Below are positions 23,557 to 35,630 of a stretch of DNA of 64,000 bases, piece after piece; within the stretch, counting starts at the first letter, position 1; each line of letters starts with the position of its first letter. Under the pieces are notes generated by a model. The model saw only the letters and a list, made by a program, of their open reading frames with translations. It had not been told where the DNA came from and made no database searches. This stretch comes from Pezizomycotina sp. ARF18 (lineage: Eukaryota > Ascomycota): positions 420,777 through 484,776 of the forward strand of contig AZLU01000002.1 of assembly GCA_002224055.1 (NCBI GenBank), in the 5' to 3' direction. Made by a program: the position numbers and the translations under genes.

Positions 23557-24606
23557 TCAAGGGTCGATCTTCATTTTCTTAAGGGCTTGGAGCGGGCATA
23601 GGACCGGGCATAGGGCTGCTGGGGGGCTTGGAGCGGGCATAGGACCGGGCATAGGACTGCTGGGGGGCTTGGACCGCTGGGGGTGCTCGGACGGCTGGGA
23701 GGGGGAACGGGCGTCGGTGTCGATGTAACCACATGCAGGCGTTTCAAGGCAGCGGGCAACTTCGACCCGTCGGCCTTGCATTGCTTCAGGGTACTAGCCA
23801 ACCCCGCGACGTTCTGCCCGTTAGACCAGGGTATCATCCGCCGATTGCAGCTAGGTTGGAGCCTGAGCCATGCGGCAAGGGCCAGGTAGCTGTAGTTGTC
23901 GGCATTGTACATGGCTATCCAAGGCGACGTCTTTGCGAATTTGGTCACGCTCGCAGCGCCGTAGAGGCAGTCCTTCGTCCCGCCAATCGGGGACTCAGGA
24001 ACCATTGTAGGTGCGAGAGCTCGTGAATGAGCGCATTACCGGTGTTGCGGTACGTCGCCAGGTCCTTGGAAATGTTGTCTGTACTGGAGTTCCTATACTC
24101 GCATTCGAATAGTGCCTCAGAGGGGGAGAACGTGTTTTCGAGGAATTTAGGACAGACGTATATAACGCCTCCATTGTCTGACGCGAAGTCATCACCGAGA
24201 CGAAGCGAGTCTGCCGCAGCCGTCGCACCGTCAATGCAACCCTGCTTTTTCTTGTCCACGTCGCACTCGATGGTGACTTTGCGCACTATGTCCTTTGTTG
24301 TGTCGGTCTGGTCGCAATCTCCTGGAACCTGTTGACGACGACGGTGTGACGGGCGGCGTTTGATGTAGAGTCCATCCACGTTTTATAGATTTTGGTGGTA
24401 GAGCTTATATTCATTGCCTCTAAGGCCATTGCATGCGCGCCGTCGATCGCCTCTTTGACCGTTACAAGGTTTTCATCTTTGCAGGATTCGTCGATGATGA
24501 AGTTGGCATAATTTGTATCGACGCGGCGGACCAAGGCCGGCTGGGATGGCAGCGCGAAAGCCGTTCCAGCGATAGAGGCCGCGAGAAGGATGGCTGGGAA
24601 CAACAT
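23557..24606 (-). CDS. Secreted aspzincin (M35-like) metalloprotease
   Basis: Extracellular zinc endopeptidase. ATG at 24606 opens a signal peptide (MLFPAILLAASIAGTAFA). The body then reads as a fungal deuterolysin/lysine-specific protease-like protein. The zinc-binding HExxH is present in GNALIHELSHLQ (about 24020). The third-ligand motif GTxDxxYG, which defines aspzincins, appears as GTKDCLYG (about 23970), followed by NADNYSYLALAAW. The order and spacing fit the family. The frame slips by one base near 24330, between the two motifs, and again in the tail. The C-terminus is an unusual Pro/Ser-rich extension with a duplicated 41-base unit. The stop at 23557 is the likely end, but the tail frame is uncertain. 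Confidence 0.75.
23585..23666 (-). repeat. Two tandem 41-base units in the protease tail
   Basis: The unit starting GCTTGGAGCGGGCATAGG occurs at 23585-23625 and 23626-23666 with a single G/A difference; a partial third unit begins at 23667. On the coding strand it encodes short Pro-Met-Pro-Gly type peptides. The length of 41, not a multiple of three, together with a C6 run at each junction, suggests that a base is missing from the homopolymer. Confidence 0.7.
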
Positions 24607-27863: not shown

Positions 27864-30800
27864 TTAATGACAGTGTTGTTCATGTCGCTTGCGATCGTGA
27901 TGCCGAACGAAAGATTTTTCGCAATCAGGAAAACTGCAAATATACGGTCGTTCGTTATTATGTGAACGGACATGAGCCCTCAGATTATGCGGACGCGTGA
28001 ATTTAGCATTGCAGTGTTCGAAAGGACATTCCAGGCTGTTTTGCTTTTTCCGAAGTCCATTGCCCCCATCTTCCTTTTGAACGTCGTCATCCTGAAATTC
28101 GAGTTCTTCCTCCGCGGCAGTAATACCATGGTACTCGAAAACATGCTTTTTTAAGTCTTTTGCGGTTGCGCAACCAATGACAGACTGTGGACAGCCCTTG
28201 ACTGAGCACTTGAACGAACGGTCGTGCTTAAAGACGTGTTGTTTGCGCTGGAGTTCTGTGGGGAATCCTATGTGGAAGAATTGACAATTGAGTCTGGGAC
28301 ATTTGAAGTAGTAGCGGCCGTGAAACTTTGCTATAGCTACCCTATCTTCATCGTGACGTTGCCTTAACAACTTCTTTTCGTTTTCGATGGAGGCTTTCGT
28401 GGTTTTGTCCAAATTTTTAACCTTAAGCTTTTCCTCCAACGGTTTATTCCTTTCCTCTAGGGTCTTATAGGATACTATATACTCAAGAACAGCTCGTATG
28501 CGTACATTCGCCTGACAGACCAAAAGTACTTCGTCTTTTGTTGGCTCTTTTCCCTTCACTCCGAGTAGGTTCTTCGAAGATGCTATTGCTTGAGATGCCG
28601 TAGAATAGTACGGGTGGCTTTGTAGCGCCTGCAGCCTTTTCTGCAGTGTTGTGGACACAACAACTGGTTTTGCTGAGTCAGAACTCTGAACTTCCACGAA
28701 CGTGGTCAAGCATTCGTTCAAAGCACTATATTCCTCGGGTCCTGTTCACTATGTTTTGAAATTGCTTCCTCCAAGTGTAGTGCCCAGAAACAGACTGCAT
28801 AGTCTGCAAAAGAGTAGTGGCCCTGAAATAAAGCCGTTTTGATCAGACGTCCAGGTCCCATTTCCGTAGGATCTGAAGGCGCTTTGGGACCCTCTGTAGG
28901 AGCGTCCACGGTGGCTTCTCTAACCTCTTTGGTCCCATCGACCTCAATGACCTCGTCTCCTTGAACTCAAATTCTCTAAGGCTTAGATATGTTAAACATA
29001 AAGTTGCAAGATCGCACTCCACTTTGGAAGGACAGATGTATCCTCGTTTCCTCAGGTAGCTAAACATATGTTAGCAAGAGTCAAAATCGTTTAACAATAA
29101 ATCGTGAGTACGTACCCTTTGACGGTTGAATGCACCAGAGTTACAGACTCATCAGAACCAATTTCTACCAAGGAGGCACAAATATCTTTACAGTCCTCCT
29201 GAAATTTCTGTGACGGGTTAAAGATGCCTTCTACGGCATCGATCGCCATAGCGCCTTGTATCTCGTACCATTTTAAAGGCCTTTAGCGCAAGAAAGCCAA
29301 CCTAGCAACTTCAGAGCATTTTTGCTGCGTGACTGCACCTTGGATGTAGGTCCAAAAAGGCGATCTGTAATCCTCGCATATCTATAACAGAACATTAGGT
29401 AACATGCTATTAAATTGTCTGGATAGTTTGTTTACTCACGCCTCATCCAGCCCGGTCGGGAAACTATCCGGTTCTAATTCCGCTTCTAGATCCTGACGGG
29501 TCATCTGTTCACTCAGATTCCAAGTAACAAGCTTCGCGAATAAGAACATGCCTTAATGAATAATAACAGTAAGCACGACAATAAATTACCCACGATGACG
29601 AAAAGTGAGCTAACCTTGAGCCCGGCGGTCACAACATTTGTAATGTCGTGTTCTCTCTTTTCTAGCTTGCCGAATTTCGCCTCAATCCGCTGATGCCAGT
29701 GCTTGCAGAAAGCCTCGATATCTTTTTTATTATCTTTCGCTGTTATCTTGATTTGCGAAACGGTGAAGAAGTCTTTCTTCGCACAGCCATCGTCTTGGCT
29801 AATGAATAAGCATCTAATGGTTCCGAGCTCACTCGGCGGAAGGTCCTTAATCATAGATTGAAACCAATGGCATATTTCCTTCCGGTCCTCGCGAGAGTAT
29901 TCATCGAGGCCATCAATGATAATATAAGTCTTGGGCCTGCTTTTGAGTGCCAGTTCTAGCAATTCCTTTGCCAAGTTTTCACTCGCGAGAACGACTTCCC
30001 CGCTTCTGTACGCTTTTTCATAGAGATGATGAAGTAAATCATCGTTTTGGACAAGAAGTTGAGAAAGTAAGCCCCTCGCAACGTTCACGAATCCGCTCCT
30101 ATGCTCGTCTGTACTCTTGCAGTAAAAGAAGGCTACAGTTCGACTGGCCATTGGTAGGTTCCGAGCTTCTTGGATAATATGCGACGCGAGCACGGTTTTC
30201 CCTATTCATCGTCAGAGCTGAAGCACTACTTCAATAGGCTAAAAACTCTAACGTACCTGCCCTGGTATTCCATTAAGCCAAAGTAGCGGATCGGTACAAT
30301 GATCTAAACTGAACCATTGTTGGAAGCGATTATCGTGTAGTAACCAATCGCATGTTCCAGGATACCGCCGCTTTAAAGCATCTTCTTGCCTGAACTCCGA
30401 GTCCATTGCGCAGAGCCATTGTTGCACAGAAATATGGCGACGAGCGTGTTCGTCTCTCATCAACTTATCAAATCGCTCTTTCTCTTTCTTGCGTAGAGTC
30501 TGTATTTTCTCGAATTGTTTAATTGTGGCCTGTCCTTGGAGGAGTTCCTTTTGCTGTTGAAGGTTTTTGCTCAGATGCGTAACCTTCCTGTGGATATTGC
30601 GCCATGTAGCATGGAAAAGCTGCTTCCAAGCTGTCGTCGATTATTAGCCTCTATTCCGCCTGTATAACTTTGGATCATAAAACATACTTCCTTGTTTAAA
30701 GTAGCGAACTGCGTCTCTGTGGAACTCCAGGATGTCCTCAAATATCCAACTAATACTGTCTGCATATATTGGTTATCTTTGAAGACCTGTTGATACTGAA

Positions 30801-31331
30801 GTAGAAGTGGGATGTTTTCTCCAATTTGCAAATAGCCTTCCAATAATGAATCGAACGCGTCTGTAAATTTGGACGTCACCTATGGTAGAAAAATCAGCAT
30901 TTCATATTGTAGAAGTCTTATAGGACTGGAAAGGCTATAATATTACCATAAGGAGGTATTTCATAGGGCCCTGATCCCGCGTCATAAACCAATCGATTAG
31001 CGCTAATTCTCGCGGACTAAATTTACAAGAACTAGACCCTTACCCATATAAAAGCCATAATAGGTGAAGCATTGACAAAGGTATCTAGAACTTTGCCGTA
31101 ATCCTCCATGACGTCCAGGAAAGGTCTAATTCTCTTGAGATGAACCATTTTTCTAGTGTTCCGTTGCTCTTGTTGAATGCGCCCAATAGTTCGCCATAAA
31201 TCGCCGAGAGAGGTCACTTCAAGCTCCCGAAGCTCCGTTGTACTCAAACCAGCATCTCTTTTGAAAGAATCTACAGCAGATTCAAAGGCGGATCTATCGA
31301 TAGGCGCGTATACAGGCGCGACCTGAGCCAT
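27864..31331 (-). CDS. NLR-like protein: DUF7708-like, NACHT, C-terminal C2H2 fingers
   Basis: A STAND-type NTPase, probably in heterokaryon-incompatibility or immune-like signalling. Exon 1 (31331-31044) starts [14 protein letters not shown] and holds an N-terminal domain I recognise as DUF7708-like ([20 protein letters not shown], then [10 protein letters not shown]). A small exon gives GPMKYLLM; next come [19 protein letters not shown] and a Gln/Lys-rich helix. The NACHT follows: [10 protein letters not shown], an intron inside the P-loop, [13 protein letters not shown], and Walker [16 protein letters not shown] (about 29920). After several introns a linker ([20 protein letters not shown]) precedes four C2H2 fingers (28330-27870), including [20 protein letters not shown] and [12 protein letters not shown]; stop at 27864. 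There are no WD or ankyrin repeats; fingers take their place. Single-base frame changes occur, one in the A-run of the P-loop. Confidence 0.8.
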
Positions 31332-31888: not shown

Positions 31889-34800
31889 ATGTTTGACCTT
31901 GATTTGCTCTCCAGCGTTGCGACGGCGCAAAAGCGGCCGGGAAGTCCAGTCGAGAATTTTGACGAGTTATATCCTTCTAAGCGATGGCGTTCAGATGAAG
32001 AATTCGCGCCTCTAACTTCCAGGAGATAAATACCGTACCGAGTATCTAGAGCCTACATTCAATGGAGCTTCAAACGATTTCTGGAACGTGTTGATGGGAG
32101 AATCACGGTTCGACAATGTTTTTCCAGTTCCCGTTGACCCTCAACTATTCTTCGACGGCTTAGCCGATCAGGACCAACAAATAGGCTATGTGGAGCCTTA
32201 TACAGGATATCAGAGCATTGAGAGCCTTAGCCCTATTATGGATGTCGAGGTAGACAACGCCTGCACTGATATGAACATTGCGAATATAGACGCGGATTCG
32301 CCATATACCAGTCAGGAGTCAGTATATGCTAGTCAAGATTCAGCTTATGTCAGTCAGGAGCCAGTATGCGCCAGTCAGGATTCAGCTTATGTCAGTCAGG
32401 AGTCAGTATGCGCCAGCCAGGAATCCACTTATAGTAGTCAGGAAGAGGCAGTTGAATGCTTCGGAATGGTAACAGGCACCTTACTCGAGATTTCAATATC
32501 GTTTCATCAAGCTAACCCTATCACAATAAAAGATCTGTGATATCCAAGTCCGGGCGAGCAACAATCCTATAATCCGGATAGCCGCCCATGAATTATTGAA
32601 AATATCAACGGCAAACGACTTGTGCGATTAGACCTCTCCTTCGATAATGAAAACGGAATAGTACTCTTCGAAAACTCGAGAGAAATCGGAACCCTCAGCA
32701 AGAGAATAGCCCGGGAACTCGAATATTTACAAAAGAACGAATCCGTGCGATACGAGGGCTTCATACAAGTAGTGGACGGCAATGCCATTACCGGCTCGTC
32801 TATCGTGTTTGAAGTTCCGCGAGAAGCTATCATCGATATAAATGTTTATGGATGTCCACGTCTCTCCGACGTTGTCGCTTCAAAGCTCTCCAAGGCAGAC
32901 CTTTTTCTCCAAGACCCGCATTGGAACCAAGAAAATTTCCCGTACAATAATCCACAGCTTCTCAGCATTCCGGACATGTACAGATATGAGGAGGAAGACG
33001 CGCTACTCGATGTTACAACAATGCAACAAGACATCGAGATGCGATAACTTCTCCGTTGGATGCCGAAAATCCGAAAGCTACGAATTGGGCTTCGATGCAA
33101 TCCTAGACAAGCTGGCGCAACAGGACGACTTAGTTCAAATGGTTGCGGACGAGAGGATCAGAACACCTCTTCTAAGGTAGCGAACCTGCTTTCCCTATGA
33201 ATGACTGCTTTGAAGCTGACACATTGCAGCCACCAAAAGGAAGGACTCGACTTCATCTTGAAAAGGGAATATAATTCTTCCTCTCTCGAAGGACTATGGA
33301 AGTCGGAGGATCCTGAGAACCCAGATGCTCTGTAAGCCCAATTGTGAAACCGCACTTCGAACCTTACCGGTTGATAAATTAATATGACCGCCTCACTAAC
33401 TTCCCCGAAAAAGCTATCGGCACGTTATCACCGGCGCCCAAAGCACTTCCCCAAAGTGTACGATCGGGGGAATCGTTGCAGACGAGATGGGCCTCGGGAA
33501 GTCTCTCACAATGTTATCCGCAATTGTTGGTTCGTTGAATCATGGCTTCAAGTACGCGTGTGAGATGAGTAGCTTCGTGGACAGTACCGGAAAAGTCACG
33601 GTCGCCGCGAAATCGACCCTCTTAATTGTGCCATCCGAACGTAAGATCCTTATACCACAACAGAGGCCACATAGAGAAACTTGCTAATTACTTTGGTCAT
33701 AGTCATGATGGATAACTGGACCGATGAGATTGACAAGTTGAGTGTAAATATCAGCCAAGCGGAGAAAATTTCGTTTCTAATAATAACAATGTAGGCATAT
33801 CAACCCGGTAGTTTGAAGGCTTACAATACCACGGTAACGGAAGAAAGATTTCTTATCCGGAACTTCTCGAGAACGATATCATCATCACGACGTATGCTAC
33901 TCTCGCAGCTGAGTTTAGTCGCAAGTATAGCTTACTTCACCAGATCACTTGGTACAGAGTTGTCCTTGACGAAGGTAATGCCTGCTCTATTTCCAATTAA
34001 GGTGGAAAATTACGGCTAACATTGTCTAAGCCCATGTTATACGCAACCCCGCAACCAAACAATTCATAGCCGTTGTTTCCCTCACCGCTCGAAGCAGATG
34101 GTGTCTGACGGGAACACCAATCCAGAATACACTCGAAGACCTGGGCTCTTTGGTCAGATTCTTAAGAGAACCTCTCTTGGACGATGCAGCGCAATTCCGA
34201 AGACACATTATTGGTAATATTGACTCAAACGTAGCGACCTCATGGAAAGATTTTGAAAGTCTTCGGATTCTTCTGAGCTCAATATGCCTAAGGAGAAATA
34301 AAACGGTTCTCTCGCTCTCAGAGTCAACAGAGCATATCCATGAGTTGGAGTTTACACCATCCGAGAGGGAAGAATACGACCGCCTCGAGCTAACGTGTAG
34401 GCAAGCAATAGAAATGGCTGTGAGCGGGCACAAAACTAAGGAGGCCACCAAACTGTACTGGAAGCTATCCTTCGATTACGTTTGTTTTGCAATAACGGGG
34501 CGTTCACTGCGGCCTCCCAGGGAGGTGATAACCTCTTACTCGATGCTGAGGAGCTTGGCAGTTTGCTGCAACAACAAGATGCTGCAATATGTCACTACTG
34601 TTCTTGCGACATCACCTCTTTTAGCGGTTTCGGTACCCAAGGCTCTGGAACGGTTACTCAATGCCGGCGTGCAGTTTGCAGCGCTAGCGAGTGCATGCAA
34701 AGGTACAATAACGAAACCAGCGCTGGATCCGCTTGTCCATTCTGTGGCAAAAACACGAGCTGTCAAAAGCAGTCGCCATAAATGAGCTGAGCGGAGCACC

Positions 34801-35630
34801 GACTCAGTATCCATCCAAAATTATCGCTCTAGGCAATGACATCGACATGCATAAGCATCAAAGCAAAAGGTCTGAGCTTTAAAACTGACTGTCTCTATTT
34901 CTTCGAAACTAACTTTCTACATTTTAGCATTGTTTTCTCCTTCTGGAAAAAATCTTTGGATATAGTCGGCCGTTTATTCGAAGCGAAGCGCATAAACTAC
35001 GTTCGCGTTGATGGCACTCTGACGCTGGTGGAAAGGAAAAAATCCCTTGCCAAATTTCAGACAGATCCAAGCGTTTCTGTGCTCCTGATGACCTTGGGCA
35101 CGGGAGCTGTTGGTACGTACGAGTGTATCAGCTGAAACTCATAACTATAAATGTACTGACTTGTATAGCCTAAACAATCTCTCCATAGCTAGCCGCATAC
35201 ACATCCTCGAACCTCAATGGAATCCCGCAGTGGAAAGTCAGGCGATTGGCGAGTTGTGAGACTCGGGCAGAATAAGGCAGTGCAGATCGTCCGCTATATG
35301 ATGAAGCCCACGGTGGAAATGGTAAAATAAAATCCTAATCATTTGGTGTCCGTGACGTTATTGCTAACATGCCGCATCAAATAGAACGTTCATAATCGAC
35401 AGCTTCGGAAGCTACAACTTTCTAAGGGTGGTTTCGGCAGCGTAAAATCTCGACAGACAAAGAAGAAAGCCAAAAGGACCAAAGGATCGAGTTATACAAG
35501 GTAAGCTCATGAGATATCTCTTTATTCAATAACATATGCTCACCTTGATATTTAGGACTTAATAAACACTACCGATCAAGTCAATGATGGGGTTGGGAAT
35601 CAGGACCCAATTGTTTCGTTATACACATAG
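31889..35630 (+). CDS. SNF2-family DNA-dependent ATPase/helicase, Rad5/HLTF-like layout
   Basis: Nuclear ATP-dependent chromatin or repair factor. ATG 31889 begins MFDLDLLSSVATAQKRPGSP with a basic cluster (KRWR). A repeat-rich N-terminus carries seven SQ motifs. Motif I is ADEMGLGKS (33479) in HVITGAQ...GGIVADEMGLGKS; motif Ia LLIVPSE; motif III LTGTPIQNTLEDLGSLVRFL (34110). A Cys-rich, RING-like insert follows (ICHYCSCDI, later CPFCGKN at about 34740). The C-terminal helicase lobe has INYVRVDGTL, VLLMTLGTGAVG and, after an intron, ASRIHILEPQWNPAVESQAI with motif VI VVRLGQNK. The tail is basic (KSRQTKKKAKRTKG) and the stop is at 35630. At least six introns are likely. Several single-base frame changes occur. 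A RING between the helicase lobes places it near Rad5/HLTF-type proteins, but the exact subfamily is uncertain. Confidence 0.85.
32310..32445 (+). repeat. Heptad SQ repeat coding region
   Basis: Codes for seven consecutive SQ dipeptides spaced exactly seven residues apart (TSQES, ASQDS, VSQEP, ASQDS, VSQES, ASQES, SSQEE). At the DNA level a 42-base double unit is repeated nearly exactly, which suggests recent expansion. Confidence 0.85.

Follow-up and report, generated by a model that had tools for sequence, protein, structure and literature searches.

A predicted NACHT-type NLR gene with C-terminal C2H2 zinc fingers in Pezizomycotina sp. ARF18

Most fungal NLRs carry WD40, ANK or TPR repeats at the C-terminus, where the sensor of an NLR/STAND protein usually lies, the output being at the N-terminus (PMC9815663; PMC4986451); words beginning with zinc or C2H2 do not occur in the main text of either source. 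The closest described proteins come from a 2025 survey of Sordariales NLRs, whose text reports zinc fingers in 57 NLRs, C-terminal in 52 of the 57 and N-terminal in at most five (PMC12258605). The C2H2 type accounts for 34 of the 57, a subset for which that text states no separate C-terminal share. Fingers occur beside canonical repeats in 16 cases, all of the treble-clef type, so the published C2H2 NLRs stand without such repeats. One protein, bombom-1_g5425, carries a zinc finger three times in tandem at its C-terminus, and the survey authors hypothesize that zinc fingers are sensors and perhaps an additional canonical C-terminal domain (PMC12258605). Because proteins with a C-terminal zinc finger are counted as NLRs in that survey, WD40, ANK or TPR repeats at the C-terminus are usual and not required. 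The text available of PMC11412873 holds nothing on the NACHT-finger combination, and that of PMC3218866 describes ankyrin proteins with CCHC fingers and no NACHT. Within the open-licence literature searched, neither a function or ligand for a fungal zinc-finger NLR nor DUF7708 was found, the former in sources available in part.

A first-pass annotation of the locus studied here had taken C-terminal WD40, ankyrin or TPR repeats as the norm, which is right as a tendency (PMC9815663; PMC4986451), and had noted that NACHT joined to zinc fingers occurs in some fungal predictions, with no assigned function known to it. Novelty is not upheld for this combination, since both the Sordariales survey and the sensor idea are in print (PMC12258605); the architecture is already described in other fungi.

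The window, that is the whole 64,000-nucleotide stretch that was analysed, is part of contig C2. The assembly has 408 contigs and totals 46.4 Mb; its spliced genes and NLR-like set point to a filamentous fungus. On the minus strand of the window, a series of open pieces bordered by GT-AG begins with an ATG at 31331, reaches a stop at 27864 and can be read as one protein with the order DUF7708, NPHP3_N/NACHT, winged-helix-like piece, linker and four C2H2 motifs. The features are listed below in window positions, C126 being a diverged relative on another contig that is described further on.

31044..31331, minus strand: exon 1, which opens the DUF7708 region and has its ATG at 31331; splice sites read by eye from the sequence, tblastn match at C126 (E 1.1e-9)
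30947..30970, minus strand: micro-exon 2, 8 codons inside DUF7708; GT-AG borders, in phase with exons 1 and 3
30688..30879, minus strand: exon 3, a further part of DUF7708, with a frame step near 30746; sequence, C126 match and read-through profile
30257..30630, minus strand: exon 4, holding the last part of DUF7708, a linker judged helical from its composition, and the start of NPHP3_N with the P-loop ...GIPGQ
29615..30201, minus strand: exon 5, NPHP3_N/NACHT core, GKT... and Walker B; profile matches on ORF 30205-29513
29440..29551, minus strand: exon 6, containing MFLFAKLV, its phase not matching that of exon 5; tblastn match at C126 (E 1.1e-4)
29116..29381, minus strand: exon 7, which holds the winged-helix-like piece and a frame step near 29278; GPIID_WHD 23.6 bits, below cut-off
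27864..29059, minus strand: exon 8, a linker region followed by the fingers and the stop at 27864, with the frame changing near 28955 and near 28735; ORFs and collinear C126 pieces
28128..28301, minus strand: fingers 1-2, C-x4-C-x15-H-x3/4-H, non-canonical loop; motif scan, 37% identity at C126
27867..28028, minus strand: fingers 3-4, C-x4-C-x12-H-x3/4-H, NNERPY linker; motif scan, PDB sequence matches

Profiles were scanned in two ways, with the pieces taken separately and with the N-terminal pieces read through, X being placed at the joins. In the read-through, DUF7708 (PF24809) reached 63.2 bits over residues 69-207 (E 3.1e-17, cut-off 25), NPHP3_N (PF24883) 117.1 bits (E 1.2e-33, cut-off 24.8) and NACHT 28.3 bits (E 1.8e-6, cut-off 26.7). 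DUF7708 was absent from the Pfam scan of the separate pieces; joined in the read-through, exons 1-3 score as DUF7708 across micro-exon 2. ORF 30205-29513 by itself exceeded the cut-offs for both NPHP3_N (E 1.1e-21) and NACHT (E 4.9e-6), and exon 4 matched positions 1-32 of the NPHP3_N profile at 29.3 bits, with a phase clash with exon 5 at the P-loop. The locus has the P-loop NTPase domain of NACHT or NB-ARC type expected of a fungal NLR or STAND protein, preceded by an N-terminal domain, DUF7708, with a putative effector role. The Walker B motif, IIIDGLDEY, lies in exon 5; the Walker A motif is interrupted by an intron (...LWLNGIPGQ / GKTVLAS...) whose phases are unmatched as assembled. Between NACHT and the fingers, the winged-helix-like piece scored 7.3e-5 with GPIID_WHD (23.6 bits, under the cut-off of 27). 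Pfam scans of the pieces gave no WD40, ANK or TPR repeats at E up to 1, and the position after the NTPase is held instead by C2H2 fingers, presumably on the same transcript. The four-part order and strand proposed in the first-pass annotation are thus borne out by the DUF7708, NPHP3_N and NACHT profiles together with the four C2H2 motifs. Both NACHT motifs it named are present, the Walker B as described and the GIPGQ P-loop split by the phase-mismatched intron. Of the three profiles with which it had proposed to search the corrected locus, NACHT and DUF7708 were over cut-off on the read-through pieces, and zf-C2H2 gave the divided result reported below.

Other features lie close to this gene. 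A SNF2-family helicase gene at 33400-35300 on the plus strand (PF00176, 6.3e-24) is divergent from it; its frame seems to change near 34.44 kb, and, as read by eye, it includes a cysteine-rich, RING-like stretch. Upstream of this SNF2-like gene, a tandem repeat of 21/42-bp units at 32303-32443 (plus strand) reads as an SQ-rich peptide repeat in the plus frame. On the minus strand, 23571-24035 holds an M35 metallo-endopeptidase-like piece (PF14521, 25.2 bits, below cut-off).

The four fingers lie on the minus strand at 28301-28224, 28208-28128, 28028-27960 and 27938-27867, and all four motifs (C-x4-C...H-x3/4-H) fall in one 293-aa frame. None of 40 mononucleotide-shuffled windows had more than one such motif per open frame of at least 60 aa (one motif in 28, none in 12), against four in one frame in the window. 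The canonical C2H2 loop is 12 residues long, and TGEKP is the linker of DNA-binding fingers. Fingers 3-4 have this 12-residue loop, and their NNERPY linker resembles TGEKP in sequence; in fingers 1-2 the loop is 15 residues. Profile support for the fingers is modest. In the genome search with zf-C2H2 (PF00096), finger 3 was over the cut-off at 25.7 bits and fingers 1, 2 and 4 were not listed, whereas in hmmscan the whole finger ORF stayed at 21.1 bits, below the cut-off of 25.2. A PDB sequence search with the finger ORF returned 148 distinct sequences at E up to 1; among the best 60 of the 148, the best-scoring stretch fell within ORF residues 209-293, corresponding to fingers 3-4, and the top names were the designed protein Aart, WT1, GLI, ZNF410 and YY1, with Zif268 lower. 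Structure models were of very low confidence (mean pLDDT 41.6 for the finger ORF and 36.4 for the finger array alone), so that fingers 1-2 are unconfirmed as folded fingers. The aberrant zinc finger family PF17017 was considered for fingers 1-2 and rejected (E 0.017, below cut-off); its genome search gave no match at E up to 10, even in the window or in controls, and is hence uninformative. The canonical fingers 3-4 are the best candidate for DNA contact and may serve the direct nucleic-acid sensing or DNA-binding output suggested in the first-pass annotation; fingers 1-2, with their longer loop, may be a structural or protein-binding core.

A genome search with the finger ORF (E up to 0.01) gave two matches beyond itself. 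One, C262:27882-28028, corresponds to fingers 3-4 (E 0.008, 35% identity) and is part of another C2H2 protein gene, with no NPHP3_N match there in the genome-wide list. The other, C126:65568-65723, corresponds to fingers 1-2 (E 0.0012 in the whole genome, 37% identity). In tblastn against C126:62000-68500, the pieces of the window gene find collinear matches, all on one strand and within about 3 kb: exon 1 (E 1.1e-9), exon 3 (6e-4), exon 4 (0.005), exon 5 (0.003), exon 6 (1.1e-4), exon 7 (0.011), two pieces of exon 8 (0.016 and 0.012) and fingers 1-2 (3e-7). These E-values are optimistic, being computed on one 6.5 kb locus with no composition correction, and several are weak singly; only collinear matches count, most others being chance matches, and it is order and spacing that make the case for homology. 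The relative has a winged-helix-like piece (24.7 bits, below cut-off), and in the six of its ORFs that were scanned NPHP3_N and DUF7708 did not pass the cut-off. Its Walker B reads IVIDGLMKY, compared with IIIDGLDEY in the window gene. The second finger at C126 has the same 15-residue loop, the cysteines of the first fall outside the matched frame, and no counterpart of fingers 3-4 was found by pattern in any sense frame of the stretch examined. The new detail at this locus is accordingly the 15-residue loop of fingers 1-2, which recurs at C126, beside a canonical pair 3-4 that is not found there.

Because this diverged locus matches the pieces in the same order, fingers 1-2 included, the finger exon is most likely part of the NLR gene, and the reading as a single gene, with a presumed single transcript, is well supported by the sequence. 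Within the proposed sensor, fingers 1-2 seem to be the part that is old and shared. The first-pass annotation had held that a lack of homologues with the same order would count against it; such a homologue exists at C126, for fingers 1-2 only, and the searches of this genome gave no separate homologue bearing all four fingers.

Across the genome, the NPHP3_N search returned 102 segments, grouped into 76 clusters that do not include C126, and the PF00096 search gave 103 matches. A finger match lay within 8 kb of four of the 76 clusters (the window, C32, C30 and C111), and the window cluster was the only one with a same-strand downstream zf-C2H2 match within that distance; at C32 the match is on the same strand but 3 kb upstream, and at C30 and C111 it is on the opposite strand. 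This search is insensitive, listing one of the four window fingers and none at C126. Patterns were also scanned in 20 of the 76 clusters, the first in contig order with the window excluded. The loose C2H2 pattern occurred on the sense strand of one of the 20 (a single poor match 4 kb downstream, at L045) and on the opposite strand of five, and the strict pattern in 0/20 on either strand, the latter being insensitive as well, since it recovers one of the four fingers in the window gene and none at C126. Rarity in this genome is poorly measured because of this insensitivity.

The front half of the gene recurs. A DUF7708 genome search (E up to 1) found segments at six loci but not in the window, where several exons share the domain between them. 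At all six, as compared by eye, a same-strand NPHP3_N match follows within about 1.2 kb on the 3' side of DUF7708, which makes DUF7708-NPHP3_N a recurring front half. C-terminal ORFs were scanned at four of these loci (nine of 26 ORFs, with C77 and C345 covered to about 1.5 kb downstream). C106 ends in ankyrin repeats (Ank_2, 3.3e-93); the ORFs scanned at C77, C345 and C114 contained no repeat or finger family, and C77 gave GPIID_WHD. These results fit a family that keeps its front half and varies in its C-terminal part, as expected if the sensor module is exchanged, with C106 as the one clear case.

We therefore read the locus, with a probability of about 0.7, as one gene of the fungal STAND/NLR type, in which DUF7708 would form the output side, NACHT the predicted switch, a winged-helix and helical region the arm, and the four C-terminal C2H2 fingers the sensor. 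The assignment of the array as most likely the sensor and of DUF7708 as output follows from analogy with STAND proteins. On the same analogy, the fingers would bind a cue, for which nucleic acid and protein are both possible ligand classes. Binding would relieve autoinhibition and let nucleotide exchange proceed, the NACHT module would then oligomerise and bring DUF7708 domains into clusters, and clustered DUF7708 might trigger a defence or incompatibility response. A more specific version is tentative and, in our estimate, unlikely: the NLR would sense or bind nucleic acid through a composite array, in which an old, lineage-specific pair, fingers 1-2, is combined with fingers 3-4, a canonical pair that can be exchanged and that determines which sequence is recognised.

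The fingers might instead be the output, the activated NLR entering the nucleus and binding DNA in the manner of a transcription factor. The canonical form of fingers 3-4, with their TGEKP-like NNERPY linker and their matches to WT1, Zif268, GLI and YY1 fingers, speaks for such a role. The usual polarity of NLR/STAND proteins, with the sensor at the C-terminal end and the output at the N-terminal end (PMC9815663; PMC4986451), speaks against it, Pfam scans of the gene's pieces contained no activation domain, and the very fingers concerned were not found at C126. We consider a DNA-binding output rather unlikely.

Six frame failures were read by eye from the sequence in 3.5 kb, namely four frame steps (near 30746, 29278, 28955 and 28735) and two phase-mismatched introns (30256/30202, at the P-loop, and 29614/29552). 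HSP70 and CCT chaperonin loci of the same assembly served as a control, in which frame changes without room for an intron were counted. The HSP70 loci gave 20 frame changes in seven loci spanning 10.5 kb (about 1.9 per kb) and the CCT loci 13 in eight loci spanning 12.0 kb (about 1.1 per kb); a few of these were perhaps counted twice, as segments overlap at C70 and C3. Counted in this way, the window gene shows 4 frame changes over 3.5 kb (1.2 per kb); its two intron-phase mismatches fall outside the rule. Restricted to loci with at least five segments, the rates were 2.19 per kb for HSP70 and 1.70 per kb for CCT. Loci affected in this way include C49:53036-54818 and C70:64385-65993, and the maximum at one HSP70 locus was six frame changes. 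Because HSP70 and CCT genes break at comparable rates, the frame failures say little about gene activity, and ORF-based gene calls from this assembly need care.

A decaying pseudogene, inactivated in this strain by genuine mutations at the sites of the frame failures, is on this evidence improbable. Six failures within 3.5 kb are consistent with decay, fungal NLRs turn over fast, and the control is not an exact fit, with two of the six failures outside its rule. Against this, essential chaperone genes with breaks at such rates cannot all be dead, and no stop interrupts either the finger ORF (293 aa) or the NACHT ORF (230 aa).

The predicted sensor could also be an integrated decoy, its fingers having been copied from a host transcription factor that parasites target and joined to the NLR as bait; PMC12258605 discusses this idea for the zinc fingers of plant NLRs. 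The genome shows no close donor, the finger ORF's other matches there at E up to 0.01 being just C126 (37%) and C262 (35%), and the presence of fingers 1-2 at a diverged NLR-like locus suggests that they are old rather than recently fused, which leaves a decoy very doubtful.

That the finger exon belongs to a separate, adjacent C2H2 protein gene, as the frame step before the finger ORF and the presumed nature of the single transcript might suggest, is highly improbable, since the finger ORF (28745-27864, 293 aa) contains no methionine, overlaps the preceding ORF by 28 bases so that an intergenic gap is absent, and has fingers 1-2 in the same order at C126, and since NLRs with C-terminal zinc fingers are already published (PMC12258605). 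The initial placement of the finger exon in the same gene as the NACHT domain thus agrees with the collinear C126 locus, the methionine-free overlapping ORF and frame breaks like those of housekeeping genes.

Comparison of the window gene with C126 suggests a division within the array of the proposed NLR, fingers 1-2 being a shared core and fingers 3-4 a variable part. Binding of DNA or RNA by the fingers would mean that fungi possess an NLR-based nucleic-acid sensor with a role comparable to that of animal DNA sensors.

Among known systems, the zinc-finger NLRs of Sordariales are similar in combining a nucleotide-binding domain with C2H2 fingers in the absence of canonical repeats, and differ in that the window gene has four motifs, two of them with a 15-residue loop; the likeness concerns the architecture as described (PMC12258605). 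For bombom-1_g5425 the comparison covers its C-terminal finger repeat, the text used stating neither its N-terminal domains nor its finger type (PMC12258605). Within the same genome, C106 has DUF7708 followed by NPHP3_N as in the window gene, with ankyrin repeats instead of fingers. The HET-E and NWD2-type NACHT NLRs of Podospora place NACHT between an N-terminal effector and a C-terminal sensor, as proposed here (PMC9815663; PMC4986451), but their sensor is made of WD40 repeats and their N-terminus carries a HET domain or an amyloid motif. The BED zinc-finger NLRs of cereals, such as Pm6Sl, likewise combine an NLR with a finger of a known DNA-binding type, whose mechanism in resistance is unexplained in that source; they are plant NB-LRR proteins in which the BED finger lies inside the N-terminal coiled coil (PMC11436982), whereas in the window gene the fingers stand at the C-terminal end.
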